Shown here in pieces: positions 16,697 to 25,088 of a stretch of 64,000 nt of DNA; the stretch's first letter is position 1, and each line of letters begins with the position of its first letter. Made by a program: the position numbers and the translations under genes. The notes beneath the pieces are model-generated. The model searched no databases. It was given only the letters and a program-made list of their open reading frames with translations, and was not told where the DNA came from. The DNA is taken from positions 5,602,850 through 5,666,849 of the forward strand of contig NZ_JACBZA010000001.1 of the NCBI RefSeq assembly GCF_013408535.1. The letters are read 5' to 3'. The stretch is from Actinopolymorpha cephalotaxi. GTDB taxonomy: Bacteria; Actinomycetota; Actinomycetes; Propionibacteriales; Actinopolymorphaceae.

Positions 16697-17463
16697 GCGA
16701 CCTCGATCGGACGGCGCTCCTGGCGGGTTTCGGCGTAGACGACGCCAGGAGCGGCGACCATCGCACGCTGCCGGGGTGTCAACGGCTCGAGTTCGTGCGG
16801 CGCCCACTGGTGGGACAGCCATGCCCACTGGCCGGGTGCGTACTTGTAGAACAGCGCTCGCCGTACGCCGGGTCCCTTCCAGTCCAGCGAGCCGTGAGTC
16901 AGCGCCTCGGTGAAGATCACGGCGTCGCCTGCGTCGAGCTCCACGTGGCGCAACCACGGATCGTCGGGGTTTGCTCGCTTGTCAAGGAAGGGCGACGGCA
17001 GGTTCGCCTTGTGGCTGCCGGGCACGCAGACAAAGCCGCCGTCCGCTGCCGAGACCTCCGTCAGCGCGAAGCTCACCACGATCAGTCCGGCGGAGATGGT
17101 TCCGTTCCGGACGTGGTACCAGGCACAGTTGCGTGGCCGGTCGTCAGGGAAGCCGTGCAGGTCCAGGCCTGGGGAACCGGCGACCATCTGGATGCCGTAC
17201 GAGTGGTCGAGTCGTACTCGCTCGTCCACGAAGTCGATCAGATACGGGAGGATGCACTGGTGGTCGATCAGGTTCAGGAACGGCCCGCCGAGGTTGGGCA
17301 GCCACTCCAGGGCGGCTTCTCTTCCGGCCTCGTCGAGATCGTCCAACCCCTGCTGGTCGAGCACCTCGTTGAGCCGTGCCACCTCACCGGGGTCCAGCAC
17401 GCCGCGTACGACGAGGTAACCGTTGAGGTCGAACAGATATCGTTCCTGGTCGCTCACGCCCAT
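16693..17463 (-). CDS. Phytanoyl-CoA dioxygenase (PhyH)-family protein
   Basis: A 256-residue Fe(II)/2-oxoglutarate oxygenase-fold protein. It has RYLFDLNGYLVVRGVLDPGE, GPFLNLIDHQCILPYLIDFV, the core WYHVRNGTISAGLIVVSFAL, the metal-site segment DGGFVCVPGSHKANLPSP and DAVIFTEALTHGSLDW. The family hydroxylates or halogenates small molecules and is common in natural-product and ectoine pathways. The exact HxD pair is not obvious by eye, so activity is unproven. A longer start at 17517 is possible. It is translationally coupled to the TmrB-like gene. Confidence 0.84.
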   Translation of the reverse strand: MGVSDQERYLFDLNGYLVVRGVLDPGEVARLNEVLDQQGLDDLDEAGREAALEWLPNLGGPFLNLIDHQCILPYLIDFVDERVRLDHSYGIQMVAGSPGLDLHGFPDDRPRNCAWYHVRNGTISAGLIVVSFALTEVSAADGGFVCVPGSHKANLPSPFLDKRANPDDPWLRHVELDAGDAVIFTEALTHGSLDWKGPGVRRALFYKYAPGQWAWLSHQWAPHELEPLTPRQRAMVAAPGVVYAETRQERRPIEVA

Positions 17464-17559
17464 GCTCAGAACCCCTGTCAGGTTGCCGCCGTACGCCAGG
17501 TCAGCCTGCCACCTCACCGACCGCAGCGCCGACCTGTTTTAGTACACGAACCACTGAAC

Positions 17560-19057: not shown

Positions 19058-19144
19058 TGTCACGCCGTGACCACACCCGACCTGGCCGGTCCGCATCGTC
19101 GTGGTGGCCGGAGACGTACCGCGCCTGATCGAATGAGAGCGTTC

Positions 19145-21625
19145 ATGCACGACAACGAGACCATCGAGGTGGTGGGAGCTCGCACCAACAACCTCCGCGA
19201 CGTGACCGTGAGTATTCCCAAGAGACAGGTGGTCGCCTTCACCGGAGTCAGCGGCAGCGGCAAGACGTCGTTGGCGATCGACACCATTCACAGCGAGGCT
19301 CAACTCCGTTACCTGGAAGGGCTCTCGCCGTTCGTTCGGCAGTACATCACTCAGCAGAACCGGCCGAAGGCGGACCGCGTCCTCGGCCTGGGCGCGACCC
19401 TCGCCGTCGATCAGCGTCGGCTCAACCGCAACCCACGGTCCACCGTCGCCACCATCACGGGCATCGACGGCCACCTCGGACTGCTCTACTCCCGGCTGCC
19501 CGGCACAGCTCCGGACGCTGCGCCCGTCGCCGGCCACCTCACCACGGCCCACTTCGACCGGCACGCTCCGGAGGGGAGCTGCTCCGACTGCCACGGCGTC
19601 GGTGGTCGCTGGCAGGCGAGGGAAGAACTGATCATCACCCATCCGGAGTTGCCCCTCTTCGAAGGAGCCTCCCCCTGGTACGCGAAGTGGCGTTCCGGGG
19701 AACACGCCTTCCTTCCCGCTCTGGCCGACAAGCGCGGCGTGGACCTCACGCGGCCCTGGCAGACGCTGCCCGAGGCGTTCCGGCACAACGTGCTGTACGG
19801 GACGGGTGAGGAGAAGCTCGAGGCCACCGTCGACATGCCGAACAAGAACGAGGCGTCCTCCTGGACGTACACCTCCAGCCAACCGTTGCGCGGAGCACTC
19901 GCCGAGGTGGAACGGGTCTTCGCGAACGCCGCCACGCCCAGCGCCAAGGAGCGCTACCTGCCGTACATGCGCAAGATGTCCTGCGCCACCTGCGGTGGTA
20001 GCGGCTACGACGACGTGGCCAGGTCGGTGCGGCTCGGTGGCCTCACCTACCCCGAACTGCTGGAAGTCGATGTACGCGAGGTGCGCAGCTGGAGGGACCG
20101 GGTCAGCGCCGACCTCGGCATCGGGCAACGCGCGGTGGGCGAGCCACTGCTGCAGGACCTGGTACGCAGGCTCAGGGTCCTGGACCGGCTGGGCCTGAAC
20201 CACCTCCAACTGTCCCGCAGCGCGGCCACCCTGTCCGGCGGTGAGCTCCAGCGAACCCGGCTCGCGGCCCAGCTCAGCACCGAACTCAGCGACATCATCT
20301 TCGTCCTGGACGAGCCGGGCACCGGCCTGCACCCGGCGGACAAGGCGCACCTGCTCGACATCGCACTGGAACTGCGAGCGGCCGGAAACACCGTGCTGCT
20401 GGTCGAGCACGACCCGGAACTGATCGGCCGCGCCGACTGGGTGATCGACCTGGGACCGGGCGCCGGGCGGCTCGGCGGCGAGGTGCTCGTCTCCGGCACA
20501 CCGTCCGACGTCGCGGCGCATCCGCTGTCGCTGACCGGACACTTCCTCGCGGGAAGGGGGCCGCGACTGCGCCGTACCCGCCGACAGGTCGGGGACCGCA
20601 CCGACTGGGTGGAACTGCACGGGCTGTCCGCGCACAACGTGACCGCGGACCGGGTCCGCTTCCCCATCGGGCGGCTGACCTGCCTGACGGGGATCAGCGG
20701 CAGCGGCAAGAGCAGCCTGCTCGGCGCGATCGGCGCCGGGATGGAGGCAGCCCTGAACGGAACGGCGACCGACACCGTCCGCAGGGTCACCGGAGGCGAG
20801 GGATTCAGCTGGGTCGCCGTGGTCGACCAGGAGCCGATCGGCCGCACCCCCCGGTCCAACCCCGCGACGTACAGCAAGGCCTTCGACATCGTCCGCAGGC
20901 TGTTCGCGGAAACCGACGAGGCACGCAAGCGGGGCCTCAACGCCTCATGGTTCTCCTTCAACACGGCGAACGGCGGACGCTGCGAGACCTGCACCGGGTA
21001 CGGCCGCAAGCTGGTAGACATGCACTTCCTGCCGGATGTGTGGGTGGTCTGCGACATCTGCGAGGGTCGCCGCTACACGCCGGAGGCTCTGGAGATCACC
21101 TACGAAGGGCTGACCATCGACGGGGTGCTGGAACTCACCGTCGCCGAAGCCGTGGAACGCCTCACGGAACCAAGGCAGTTGGCGGAGGCGCTGGAAGCCC
21201 TGAACCGAGCCGGCCTCGGCTATCTGCAACTCGGTCAGAACGCCACCGAACTCTCCGGCGGCGAAGCGCAACGGCTGAAGCTGGCCTCGGCCATTCAGCG
21301 GGGCGCGGCCGGCCGCAAAGCCGGCTTGGTGGTTCTCGACGAACCGGTGTCCGGCCTGCACCCCTCCGACATCCAGCGCATGGTGGACGCCTTCGACCTG
21401 TTGCTGGACTCGGGCAACACCGTGGTCGTCGCCGAGCACGACATCCCGGTCGCCGCCTCCGCGGACTGGGTGATCGACCTGGGGCCGGGCGCGGGCCCAG
21501 ACGGCGGGGTGGTGGTCGCGGCGGGTTCTCCGGAGGAGGTCGCTCGCGCCGACACCCCGACCGCGGGCTTCCTCCGCCGGTACGCTGCGGGCCAGCCACT
21601 GCTGGGCGAGCCCGGCACCAGTTGA
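19145..21625 (+). CDS. UvrA-like ABC ATPase (DrrC/UvrA2 type)
   Basis: An 826-residue soluble protein with two ABC ATPase halves. The first has GVSGSGKTSLAID, zinc pairs CSDC and CATC, LSGGELQRTRLA and IIFVLDEPG. The second has GISGSGKSSLLGAI, CETCTGYGRK and CDICEG, LSGGEAQRLKLA and LVVLDEPVSGLHPSD. It is about 120 residues shorter than housekeeping UvrA, as in the DrrC-type UvrA paralogues linked to resistance to DNA-binding drugs. It may therefore release drugs from DNA rather than act in normal excision repair. Starts at 19133 (ATG) and 19067 (GTG) are also open. An AT-rich TetR-type dyad lies upstream. Confidence 0.9.
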   Translation: MHDNETIEVVGARTNNLRDVTVSIPKRQVVAFTGVSGSGKTSLAIDTIHSEAQLRYLEGLSPFVRQYITQQNRPKADRVLGLGATLAVDQRRLNRNPRSTVATITGIDGHLGLLYSRLPGTAPDAAPVAGHLTTAHFDRHAPEGSCSDCHGVGGRWQAREELIITHPELPLFEGASPWYAKWRSGEHAFLPALADKRGVDLTRPWQTLPEAFRHNVLYGTGEEKLEATVDMPNKNEASSWTYTSSQPLRGALAEVERVFANAATPSAKERYLPYMRKMSCATCGGSGYDDVARSVRLGGLTYPELLEVDVREVRSWRDRVSADLGIGQRAVGEPLLQDLVRRLRVLDRLGLNHLQLSRSAATLSGGELQRTRLAAQLSTELSDIIFVLDEPGTGLHPADKAHLLDIALELRAAGNTVLLVEHDPELIGRADWVIDLGPGAGRLGGEVLVSGTPSDVAAHPLSLTGHFLAGRGPRLRRTRRQVGDRTDWVELHGLSAHNVTADRVRFPIGRLTCLTGISGSGKSSLLGAIGAGMEAALNGTATDTVRRVTGGEGFSWVAVVDQEPIGRTPRSNPATYSKAFDIVRRLFAETDEARKRGLNASWFSFNTANGGRCETCTGYGRKLVDMHFLPDVWVVCDICEGRRYTPEALEITYEGLTIDGVLELTVAEAVERLTEPRQLAEALEALNRAGLGYLQLGQNATELSGGEAQRLKLASAIQRGAAGRKAGLVVLDEPVSGLHPSDIQRMVDAFDLLLDSGNTVVVAEHDIPVAASADWVIDLGPGAGPDGGVVVAAGSPEEVARADTPTAGFLRRYAAGQPLLGEPGTS

Positions 21626-22258: not shown

Positions 22259-22729
22259 CTAACGCAGCTCCAGCTCGCCGACGGTCTCGTCGCCCCGCAG
22301 CTCGCCAGTGGGCCTGAAGCCGAGGCGGAGGTAGAAGCGCTCCGGCCCGGCCTCGCCCGAATGCCAGGTGGTGGTCAGCCGGGTGCCGCCACGACGACGG
22401 ATCTCGTCGGCCACGGACTCCACCGCGAAGCGCCCGTAACCGTGACCCTGCTCGCCGGCCGCGATGTTCAGCCGCCACAGGCCGGAACGGACATCGGCAC
22501 CTTCCCCGTCGTCGGTCCACTCGACGTCGAAGAACGCCATCAGGAAGCCGACGACCCGCTCACCGTCGACGATGAGGCGAGGCCAGGCGATGTCGGGATA
22601 GACGTACGCCTGCGCGATCGACTTCACCACCGGCGCGACCAGATGTTCCTGATCCGAACGGATCCGCAGACCGATCGCGGCGTCGAAGTTCTCCTTCGTG
22701 ATCTTCTCCAGCCTGGGTGCGCTCGTCAT
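22259..22729 (-). CDS. GNAT-family N-acetyltransferase
   Basis: A 156-residue GNAT of the spermidine/diamine-acetyltransferase-like type. It has KITKENFDAAIGLRI, YPDIAWPRLIVDGERVVGFL, the acetyl-CoA segment AAGEQGHGYGRFAVESVADE and GPERFYLRLGFRPTGE. The substrate cannot be named. It is convergent with the methyltransferase (21 bp apart) and is the last gene of a leftward run. Confidence 0.88.
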   Translation of the reverse strand: MTSAPRLEKITKENFDAAIGLRIRSDQEHLVAPVVKSIAQAYVYPDIAWPRLIVDGERVVGFLMAFFDVEWTDDGEGADVRSGLWRLNIAAGEQGHGYGRFAVESVADEIRRRGGTRLTTTWHSGEAGPERFYLRLGFRPTGELRGDETVGELELR

Positions 22730-22775: not shown

Positions 22776-24317
22776 TCACGACCTCCGGGAGAGGAGGCGC
22801 CGGACCTCGGATCGGTCGACCGACCGCGTCGCCTCTTCCAGCCAGTCGAGTGGGGTACGACTGCCGCTGTCCAGGGCGCGAGGGTCTGCCCCGTGATCGA
22901 GAAGTACCTCTATCGTCTTCAGGAAACCTGCCTTCGCCGCGTAGTGCAGCGCCGTGGCGTTCAACGCCTCGACCCCGCTCATACGCCCAGGCTCACCGGT
23001 TCGGCGGTCGTCCACGCGGGCACCGTACTGGAGCAGGGCACGGACGTAGTCCGGATCGTCCTTGCGGCCCTGGTTCCCCGTACAGCTGGCACCGATCCAC
23101 GCACCCGAGGAGTCGATCGACGCACCGCTCCCGGCCAGAAGTGGTGCGAGTAAGGGATGCAGCACCCAGCGACCTACTCCGATCCGAGTCGCGTCGGCGC
23201 CGTGCTCCAGCAGGAGTTCGACCATCGGCACGCTGCCGTGCTCGGCGGCGCCTCGCAGGGCGCGCACTCCCCCGTCCAACACGTCGGGGTCAGGGTCCAC
23301 GAGCAACCGCAGTGCCTCGACCTGTCCACCGGCGACCGCGTGGTCGATCGGAGTGATGTCGAGGGCGTCGACCGCCGGATCGGGCGACCGCGCGAGGTCC
23401 CCATCGTCGGCGAGCATTCGTTCGAGCGAAGGAAGGTCACCGAGGAACGCGGCGGTGAACACGTCCTCCTTGGCGCCGGCGTCCAGCAGCAGCGACTCCA
23501 CCTCCGAACGGCGCCTCAGCCGCGCCACGCACAGCGGCGTCGCGAACACCACGCGTTCGTACGCACGGCCGACGATCGCCACCTGAAGGCGGAACGGGAC
23601 GTCGGCTCCGACTCCGTGGCGCAGCAGCGACCGAACGACATCGGTACGCCCGGCGAGGGCGGCCTCCTGCATGATCGCGCCGGCGTACACGGGAAGCAGC
23701 AGGTCCGGCTCCTCCGCCACCGCGGCATCGAGTCCGCCGACATCACCGCGACGGGCGAGATTCGTTGCCTGCTTGACGATCCGGCCGCCGACTCCGTGCA
23801 GCGCAACGTGCTGTTGACGCCCATCGGCAGCCGGAGAGGACCGGTTGACCAGTGCCAGCGCCAGAGAATGTGCCTGGTCGAGGATCGTCTGCCGGTCGTC
23901 CTCCTCCGCGATCGTGGCACCCAGCGCCTGCCGGAAATGCCAGAGCCACCGGCCGGCCGCCGCACGGGTGATCGGGACACTCTCGTGCCGGTGGAGCAGG
24001 CTGCCGTAGGCCTGCTGGGAGTAGCGGTTCGGCCCGCCCAACCACTCGACGAAGAACACCTTCTGCATCGCTCGCCCGTCGGCGAGATCACGCGGGAAGA
24101 GGGGACGCAGCTCCTTGTCGTTCTCGAACCCGTCGTAGAGAGCGTCGACGAGTCTGTCAACCGTCGCTTGCCCACCGATCCGGTCGAAGAGCCCGGCACC
24201 GCGGAAGGGGCGGAAACCGGACGGATTCTCCAGCAGGACGCGGTGGGCGAGGGACACGGGTGGCGTGGCGACCGCCTCCCCTTGCCGCCCTGTGGGGGTA
24301 GTTCGCGACTTCGGCAT
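22776..24317 (-). CDS. Truncated haemoglobin (group II-like) fused to ankyrin repeats
   Basis: A 513-residue fusion. Residues about 42-165 align with group II truncated haemoglobins: LFDRIGGQATVDRLVDALY, FPRDLADGR, FFVEWLGGPNRYSQQ, the proximal-His segment SLLHRHESVPI (H111) and AGRWLWHF, with W124 at the place of the invariant group II Trp. Residues about 205-505 form several ankyrin repeats, clearest at TPIDHAVAGGQVEALRLLV, RGAAEHGSVPMVELLLEHGA and ALHYAAKAGFLKTIEVLLDH. The globin should bind haem and sense or handle O2, NO or peroxide; the ankyrins should bind a partner. No signal peptide or membrane segment. Start ATG has only a weak ribosome binding site. Confidence 0.88.
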   Translation of the reverse strand: MPKSRTTPTGRQGEAVATPPVSLAHRVLLENPSGFRPFRGAGLFDRIGGQATVDRLVDALYDGFENDKELRPLFPRDLADGRAMQKVFFVEWLGGPNRYSQQAYGSLLHRHESVPITRAAAGRWLWHFRQALGATIAEEDDRQTILDQAHSLALALVNRSSPAADGRQQHVALHGVGGRIVKQATNLARRGDVGGLDAAVAEEPDLLLPVYAGAIMQEAALAGRTDVVRSLLRHGVGADVPFRLQVAIVGRAYERVVFATPLCVARLRRRSEVESLLLDAGAKEDVFTAAFLGDLPSLERMLADDGDLARSPDPAVDALDITPIDHAVAGGQVEALRLLVDPDPDVLDGGVRALRGAAEHGSVPMVELLLEHGADATRIGVGRWVLHPLLAPLLAGSGASIDSSGAWIGASCTGNQGRKDDPDYVRALLQYGARVDDRRTGEPGRMSGVEALNATALHYAAKAGFLKTIEVLLDHGADPRALDSGSRTPLDWLEEATRSVDRSEVRRLLSRRS

Positions 24318-24406
24318 TCTGACGTCCGTTCCGGGCAGGACCGCGTTCCCGCCGACGCAGGCAGGGTAGCGGGCCTTCCTATCCGGCAGATCAGCCTGCG
24401 CGGCGG

Positions 24407-25066
24407 TCAGTCACCGAGGATGCGCCGCACCTCGCCGGCCAGGGCCTCGCCGAGTACGCGGTTGTTGTCCTCGGTGAAGTGGATACCGTCGACACCGTCG
24501 GTGCTGATGACCGAGCCCGCGTCGAAGAACGGGATCTTCAGGAAACTCGCCAGCGCCTCGTACTTCCTCGCGAGTTCGATCGTCTTCTCCCGGCCACCCT
24601 CGAAGATCACCTCGAACCATGGGTGTCCCATTTCGGCCAGCGGCGGCGGTGCGACCAGCAGCACCCTCGGCGCCGGATAGGCGGTGCCGACCCCGCCGGC
24701 CGAGGTGAGGACCTGGGAGAGCAGGAGGGACATGCCGGTAGCGATCTCGTTCGGCGTGCGCCGCAGGTAGGACTTGGTGTCATTCGTACCGAGCATCACG
24801 ACGACCAGATCGAGCGGCAGGTGGCTGGCCAGCGCGGACGGGAGGTACGTCGAACCGTTGAGCCGCGGGTCGGCCGGGTCGTCGGCCGTCGTGGTGCGCG
24901 CACTCAGCCCTTCCTCCACGACGTGGTAGCCGTCTCCGAGCCGGTCGGCGAGCACTCCGGTCCACCGCACGTCGCGCGGGTAGCGCCACGACGGAGCGCC
25001 CTCGGCCACCGGCACCCAGCCCCAGGTGAGGGAATCACCGAAACACATGATGCTCTTGTCGGTCAT
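24407..25066 (-). CDS. SGNH/GDSL-family hydrolase
   Basis: A 219-residue cytoplasmic esterase-type hydrolase. Block I is IMCFGDSLTWGW with the nucleophile Ser, block III contains VVVMLGTNDTKSYL with the Asn, and block V is TDGVDGIHFTEDNN with Asp and His. The segment RYPRDVRWTGVLADRLG is typical of the arylesterase-like SGNH subgroup. AAGGGAG precedes the ATG at 25066. It lies 22 bp downstream of the DUF4190-like gene and probably shares its transcript. Confidence 0.9.
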   Translation of the reverse strand: MTDKSIMCFGDSLTWGWVPVAEGAPSWRYPRDVRWTGVLADRLGDGYHVVEEGLSARTTTADDPADPRLNGSTYLPSALASHLPLDLVVVMLGTNDTKSYLRRTPNEIATGMSLLLSQVLTSAGGVGTAYPAPRVLLVAPPPLAEMGHPWFEVIFEGGREKTIELARKYEALASFLKIPFFDAGSVISTDGVDGIHFTEDNNRVLGEALAGEVRRILGD

Positions 25067-25088
25067 CGAGTCTCCCTTTCGGTTTCGA

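Follow-up and report, generated by a model that had tools for sequence, protein, structure and literature searches.

A predicted fusion of a group II truncated haemoglobin with an ankyrin solenoid in Actinopolymorpha and scattered distant bacteria

The window analysed here is a 64-kb stretch at 5.60-5.67 Mb of a one-contig, 6.86-Mb Actinopolymorpha genome, and the gene of interest occupies positions 22776..24317 of it on the minus strand (stop codon included). It encodes a predicted protein of 513 residues from its ATG, here called P0001, in which a truncated haemoglobin is followed by ankyrin repeats. A first-pass annotation had placed an open reading frame exactly there without giving a strand, which we now add; an overlapping 507-residue frame on the plus strand is disfavoured, as the substitution pattern fits the minus-strand frame. 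That annotation had named a profile search as the step at which its globin reading could fall—the search returned Bac_globin (PF01152) at residues 43-156, with an E value of 6.9e-22 and 78.3 bits (cut-off 21), along with five ankyrin models (Ank, Ank_2, Ank_3, Ank_4, and Ank_5), each above its cut-off. Up to an E value of 0.1, Pfam matched no models in P0001 beyond globin and ankyrin, and no output domain. By its sequence and predicted structure, the fusion is a real, rare, and conserved protein that combines a group II truncated haemoglobin with an ankyrin solenoid.

The fusion gene is flanked by two genes that run in the same direction, both identified by Pfam. Upstream lies a GDSL-like hydrolase gene (24407..25075, minus strand), which is found near the fusion in the window and in three near relatives (96-97% identical), and was not found in loci L105, L106, and L019; the hydrolase is probably not functionally linked to the fusion. 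A GNAT acetyltransferase gene (22259..22729, minus strand) lies downstream; no counterpart was seen in the available stretches that surround the fusion in Trebonia and in the other five Actinopolymorpha genomes. Four genomes of the genus share a conserved block of 66 bases before and at the start codon (24315..24380, minus strand). One of them is genome G001 (L007/L103), and since the block is kept there even with the end of the GDSL gene about 830 bases away, the base pattern points to a probable promoter or leader of the fusion's own. Outside the genus, no recurring gene cluster, client, operon partner, or reductase was found beside the fusion with a crude gene caller; this negative is weak, as the caller missed the GDSL gene in L016, which is present in L104, the same place. 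Elsewhere in the window, positions 19067-21625 (plus strand) hold a UvrA-like ABC ATPase of 852 residues (UvrA_DNA-bind, ABC_tran), presumably shorter than the housekeeping UvrA, that may be an accessory UvrA paralogue.

P0001 begins with an N-terminal tail (residues 1-40; 24198..24317, minus strand), delimited by alignments and the full-length model. Residues 1-20 are poorly conserved and residues 1-34 have low confidence in that model. An HR element ahead of the globin (H25 R26) is found in 12 of 13 fusions; the thirteenth has no residue at that site.

The globin half spans residues 41-160 (23838..24197, minus strand), as seen by Pfam, phmmer, Foldseek, and the structural models. The first-pass annotation had assigned the first 165 residues to a group II globin—the class stands, while the span shrinks to about 41-160—and the motifs that it had listed (EWLGGPNRYSQQ, LLHRHESVPI with H111, and W124) were all located in P0001. 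Four haem residues are found in all 13 fusions: Tyr61 (position B10; codon 24135..24137), Phe74 (codon 24096..24098; CD1 in what we take to be the numbering), the proximal His111 (F8; codon 23985..23987), and Trp124 (G8; codon 23946..23948), all on the minus strand. Tyr61 and Trp124 align with Tyr26 and Trp90 of 5v3t, which, by the structure titles, are the residues mutated in 5v3v and 5v3u. His111 is also present in all 28 rows of alignment A2, and aligns with the His of an R-H segment in three phmmer alignments to solved structures. Gly81 and Gln85 would presumably be E7 and E11 in HbO numbering, and 11 of the 13 fusions retain Gln85. Across the fusions 15 of 118 globin columns are invariant, including all four haem residues, for which the chance probability is 1.8e-4 with columns treated alike and kinship ignored.

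A search of solved structures with phmmer matched 17 sequences in total, with truncated haemoglobins on top—5d1v (E 2.3e-17), then 5v3t, 2bkm, 5v3v, and 1ux8. A globin-only model, built from A2 (28 sequences from the window and the loci), has a mean pLDDT of 82.8, with about 88 around residues 98-115, and superposes on 5d1v with a Z score of 19.2 and an rmsd of 1.4 A over 120 residues. The 14 best structure matches to this model are 12 bacterial truncated haemoglobins and two Arabidopsis GLB3 proteins, and Foldseek likewise returned truncated haemoglobins. Z scores for the 12 best rows run from 19.2 to 17.7, compared with 16.1 for HbN (2gln), 15.5 for a group 1 protein (9yg7), and 13.6 for a group III protein (2ig3); the group II label of the matched structures comes from the title for 5v3t, 5v3u, 5v3v, and 2xyk, and for the others, such as 5d1v, 2bmm, and 1ngk, is our assumption. 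The modelled fold thus resembles group II more than it does group I or III, and we assign the globin half to group II. With regard to the direction of His111, the backbone of the globin-only model fits at 1.4 A, and residues 98-115 have a pLDDT below 50 in the full-length model. The haem residues are in place, which argues for a working haem protein; by analogy with other group II proteins, we infer that the P0001 globin would bind haem b and react with O2, NO, or peroxide.

A linker (residues 161-174; 23796..23837, minus strand) connects the two halves and varies among the fusions both in length, from 14 to 21 residues, and in sequence. Its surroundings, residues 159-177, have low confidence in the full-length model, and its 14 codons give dN/dS values of 0.18-1.80 in six pairs of the four nearest genomes. 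The end of the linker carries a Cys or His in all 13 fusions: a Cys at the site or a few positions off in nine, two of which also have a His, and the His174 type in the four closest Actinopolymorpha. This residue 174 region is a possible redox or metal site.

The ankyrin half (residues 175-513; 22779..23795, minus strand) was delimited by Pfam and the full-length model, in which about ten repeats can be counted by eye from the helices. That the remainder of the protein is ankyrin, as the first reading held, agrees with both the five Pfam models and the modelled solenoid fold. The full-length model was built from 10 rows and has a mean pLDDT of 78.3 and a pTM of 0.63; its residues 175-513 match the ankyrin 6mol with a Z score of 18.8 and an rmsd of 10.4 A over 299 residues, the curvature being unmatched, and its residues 40-159 match 5d1v with a Z score of 16.4 at 2.2 A. 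One conserved site is Cys412-Thr-Gly-Asn415 (23073..23084, minus strand), with Cys412 in 13 of 13 fusions and the full CTGN in 12 of 13; in our reading of the model it sits in an enlarged inter-helix loop of repeat 8. Cys263, His326, Trp384, and Trp407 are likewise invariant among the 13 fusions. In 25 stand-alone ankyrin relatives, Cys263 is found in 24 and Trp407 in all, position 326 is Tyr in all, and Trp at 384 occurs in none. The ankyrin half belongs to a distinct ankyrin family. Its stand-alone members, found in Poribacteria, the Chloroflexota draw, and the G454 group, correspond to residues of about 171-490 and differ from the fusion in lacking the globin; identity to the fusion is 27-32% among the near-full-length matches listed.

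Joined proteins of this kind are rare and scattered. The 13 fusions analysed come from all six Actinopolymorpha genomes, Trebonia kvetii, metagenome-assembled genomes (MAGs) labelled Sorangium, Chloroflexota, and Gemmatimonadetes, and three further members of the Gemmatimonadetes MAG's group; duplicate loci of one place (e.g., L005/L016/L104) were counted once. Orthologues in the other five Actinopolymorpha genomes have identities of 80-84% and 61-66%. The fusion sequences on L020, L021, and L022 stand well apart from the window's protein (39-52% identity); these contigs are short (5-10 kb) and their taxon labels may be wrong. A fourth MAG, labelled Deltaproteobacteria, has a fusion with a run of N inside the gene (L023). 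Two genomes of the G454 group, G967 (L066) and G968 (L079), have the fusion in pieces and split over two frames, respectively; these genes (the second at L079:6643-7975, minus strand) may reflect decay or sequencing error.

Genome draws, for which the top 3-6 candidates of each genome were scored so that counts are lower bounds, give a similar picture. Among the relatives searched, full-length matches occur in 6 of 6 genomes of the genus versus 0 of 51 others, in which matches cover either the globin part or the ankyrin part only; that full-length matches are confined to six of 57 relatives is in line with the earlier remark that actinobacterial globins are usually free-standing. Full-length fusions number at least 1 in 396 genomes for Actinomycetota (the window genome only), 1 in 249 for the order of Trebonia, and 1 in 251 for the Chloroflexota draw, the genome at the centre of the draw in the latter two; 34 genomes of the Chloroflexota draw have some match, the rest of these being globin-only or ankyrin-only. 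The draw around the Sorangium MAG gave 1 in 235, again the centre genome, with one additional ankyrin-only match, and that around the Deltaproteobacteria MAG (n=235) gave that ankyrin-only match again and, besides it, just the MAG's gapped gene, the genomes of these two draws being largely identical. The phylum-level group of the Gemmatimonadetes MAG holds whole fusions in 4 of 64 genomes, that MAG counted, and G967 and G968 of this group add the two broken copies. The scan that picked up Trebonia and the labelled MAGs used six short peptide patterns of P0001, so its yield is a lower bound too. Among plasmids, four records gave partial matches and none covered more than 80% of the query, and of 51 viral contig stretches with a pattern match none was confirmed as a relative. 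Two more PF01152 matches lie elsewhere in the window genome, neither of them this fusion—one groups with free group II globins and the other, the outgroup of our tree, is read as group I—so the fusion is an extra to two other truncated globins. The presence of the joined protein in scattered, distant bacteria suggests that the pairing is probably useful.

The two halves were placed in separate trees. In the globin tree (31 sequences), the 13 fusion globins form one clade (97/93) beside the free globins L053 and L060; the 18 non-fusion globins are those most like the query and come from few phyla, and the clade is therefore tested against a limited set. In the ankyrin tree (38 halves), a single branch splits the 13 fusions from 25 stand-alone proteins (100/99); its midpoint root falls inside the fusions and groups L078 with the stand-alone proteins, and the program issued a long-branch warning. 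The alignments and trees exclude L023 (run of N), L079 (two frames), L066 (pieces), and L034 and L035 (partial); L046 was left out of A2 and the globin tree, and the ankyrin tree is without L085, L094, L096, L097, and L099, in which, of 20 regions, no ankyrin frame was called. Each half is split from its non-fused relatives on a single branch, which fits one old fusion. The trees agree on the seven actinobacterial fusions and on the pairs L020 with L021 and L022 with L076; however, they disagree on the placement of L077 and of Trebonia within the actinobacterial group, and these differences, the long branches of L077 and L078, the midpoint root, and the limited globin set all count against the single origin.

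Selection has acted on both halves. For the four closest genomes (six pairs), dN/dS lies between 0.15 and 0.28 in the globin and between 0.13 and 0.26 in the ankyrin part; when all six genomes of the genus are compared (15 pairs), the ranges are 0.15-0.41 and 0.13-0.31. By these substitution ratios, purifying selection acts on the globin and the ankyrin half alike. That the fusion is neutral or decaying, its halves serving no joint function, is strongly disfavoured and highly improbable: the patchy, rare distribution and the broken copies L079 and L066 would fit, but the 13 open frames share one architecture with invariant haem residues, and dN/dS is well below 1 for both halves.

Truncated haemoglobin chimeras are known, and the fusion can be compared with these and with other globins. 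It resembles the group II truncated haemoglobins 5v3t and 2xyk in its fold, Tyr B10, His F8, Trp G8, and a W-L/F-G-G..YS segment; unlike these single-domain structures, it has an ankyrin half after the globin, and the GHPRLRMRH stretch ahead of the proximal His is rewritten, with one residue fewer. Globin-coupled sensors likewise have an N-terminal globin and a C-terminal second domain, as described in passages of PMC1457004, but have a 3/3 fold, whereas the fusion is 2/2—the Z score is 19.2 for 5d1v against 8.5-8.8 for 4uiq and 4zvb. A truncated haemoglobin-antibiotic monooxygenase chimera of Streptomyces avermitilis (Bonamore 2007, a title cited in PMC7082302) is a two-domain protein too; its second domain is, by that title, a monooxygenase, whereas that of the fusion is a binding scaffold with no monooxygenase match in Pfam. 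Passages of PMC7082302 mention truncated-globin fusions with a kinase, a nitrate reductase, and extended termini, and its reference list includes a work on multidomain truncated haemoglobins (Hade 2017); a nitrate-reductase/truncated-globin fusion is described in PMC3820574. For the 3/3 fold, chimeric globins are well documented (PMC1457004), and the two classic multidomain classes, flavohaemoglobins and globin-coupled sensors, have this fold (PMC1457004 and PMC7082302). In PMC4256840, ankyrin and truncated globin are mentioned in separate contexts. A literature search of titles and the starts of abstracts, whose scope lay short of subscription papers, British spelling, and the key survey (Hade 2017), found no ankyrin/truncated-haemoglobin fusion; we make no claim that the ankyrin version is unreported.

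We tentatively favour a docked haem module: P0001 may be a cytosolic haem protein, derived from one old fusion, in which the ankyrin half docks on a client, the linker serves as a tether, and haem chemistry is delivered to that client. The ankyrin solenoid would dock on one particular client protein—a step suggested by the fold, which argues for protein binding—and would bring haem-ligand chemistry to it, such as NO or peroxide scavenging or O2 handling. The linker would act as a tether, and the state of the haem would not reshape the ankyrin domain. The variable linker and its low model confidence are easier to reconcile with a tether than with a rigid route for a signal, and each half has relatives without the other, which also counts for a tether. 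Against the docked module, no client, operon partner, or reductase recurs beside the gene outside the genus in the crude gene calls, haem binding is read from residues, and the proximal-His stretch has low confidence in the full-length model. Additionally, the HR element and the Cys/His at the linker end may mean that the junction is more than a mere tether; they might form a redox or haem-linked relay.

The closest alternative is an allosteric haem sensor, in which the globin's response to O2, NO, or redox conditions would alter partner binding by the ankyrin half, as a 2/2-globin analogue of the globin-coupled sensors. This reading is possible but doubtful. Its layout of an N-terminal haem domain and a C-terminal interaction domain is the one expected, the haem residues, the HR element (12/13), and the linker-end Cys/His (13/13) are kept, and the fusion occurs in distant bacteria. 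However, the 14-21 residue linker is variable and of low model confidence, Pfam finds no output domain, no neighbour recurs outside the genus, and, to our knowledge, group II truncated haemoglobins are not generally sensors. Real sensors can also have variable linkers. The first-pass annotation had proposed a gas or redox switch; no partner, output domain, or evidence that one half influences the other turned up, and the linker is variable. We weakly prefer the docked haem module over an allosteric sensor. A more specific form of the idea, a gas-sensor family in which the 2/2 globin would signal through the junction Cys/His to the ankyrin half and the CTGN loop would grip a specific client, seems unlikely.

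The ankyrin half might instead serve the globin itself, in folding, haem loading, or assembly, which we consider improbable. AnkB is reportedly necessary for full KatB catalase activity in Pseudomonas, a precedent that pairs an ankyrin protein with a haem enzyme, and both halves of the fusion remain together in the trees. Yet two further truncated globins are encoded elsewhere in the window genome, apart from the fusion, AnkB is periplasmic by the title of its report, and the likeness to it goes as far as that title. Two further candidates from database names were rejected. The phage-defence model PDC-M72A (PADLOC) matches P0001 partially and in the ankyrin part only (327-387 of 392, 33.9 bits); its matches in L021 and L022 (58.3 and 69.1 bits) are partial too. 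Injected-effector names from NCBIfam are ankyrin-only in P0001, at 16-21 bits against cut-offs of 600-800.

What group II truncated haemoglobins do in the cell is often unclear. In distant bacteria the fusion ties such a globin to what would be a docking module, and the partner of the ankyrin half would thus show the role of the globin. The fusion would also add a 2/2 globin to the multidomain haem proteins, and permits a simple test of tether versus switch.

Two observations concern genes near the relatives of each half. The stand-alone ankyrins of Poribacteria (L024-L033, e.g., L026:3179-5946) have one or two same-strand PhyH genes no more than about 1 kb upstream in 10 of 10 loci; many of these loci have further neighbours in common and may represent one event. 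A PhyH-type gene also lies in the window (16777-17517, minus strand), about 5 kb from the fusion, and others lie near the fusion in A. rutila (L104; 3 kb in L016), near the split fusion L079, and beside 1 of 15 other stand-alone ankyrins; none was found in the stretches of the other four genomes of the genus. PhyH (an Fe/2OG dioxygenase) was not seen in the remaining fusion loci examined; it is retained as a lead for a partner of the ankyrin family and carries no weight as evidence here. The nearest free globins, L053 and L060 (L100:4217-5858 and L101:2922-5684), adjoin CoA-transferase family III genes, with an overlap of about 40 bases in one case and two such genes following in the other.
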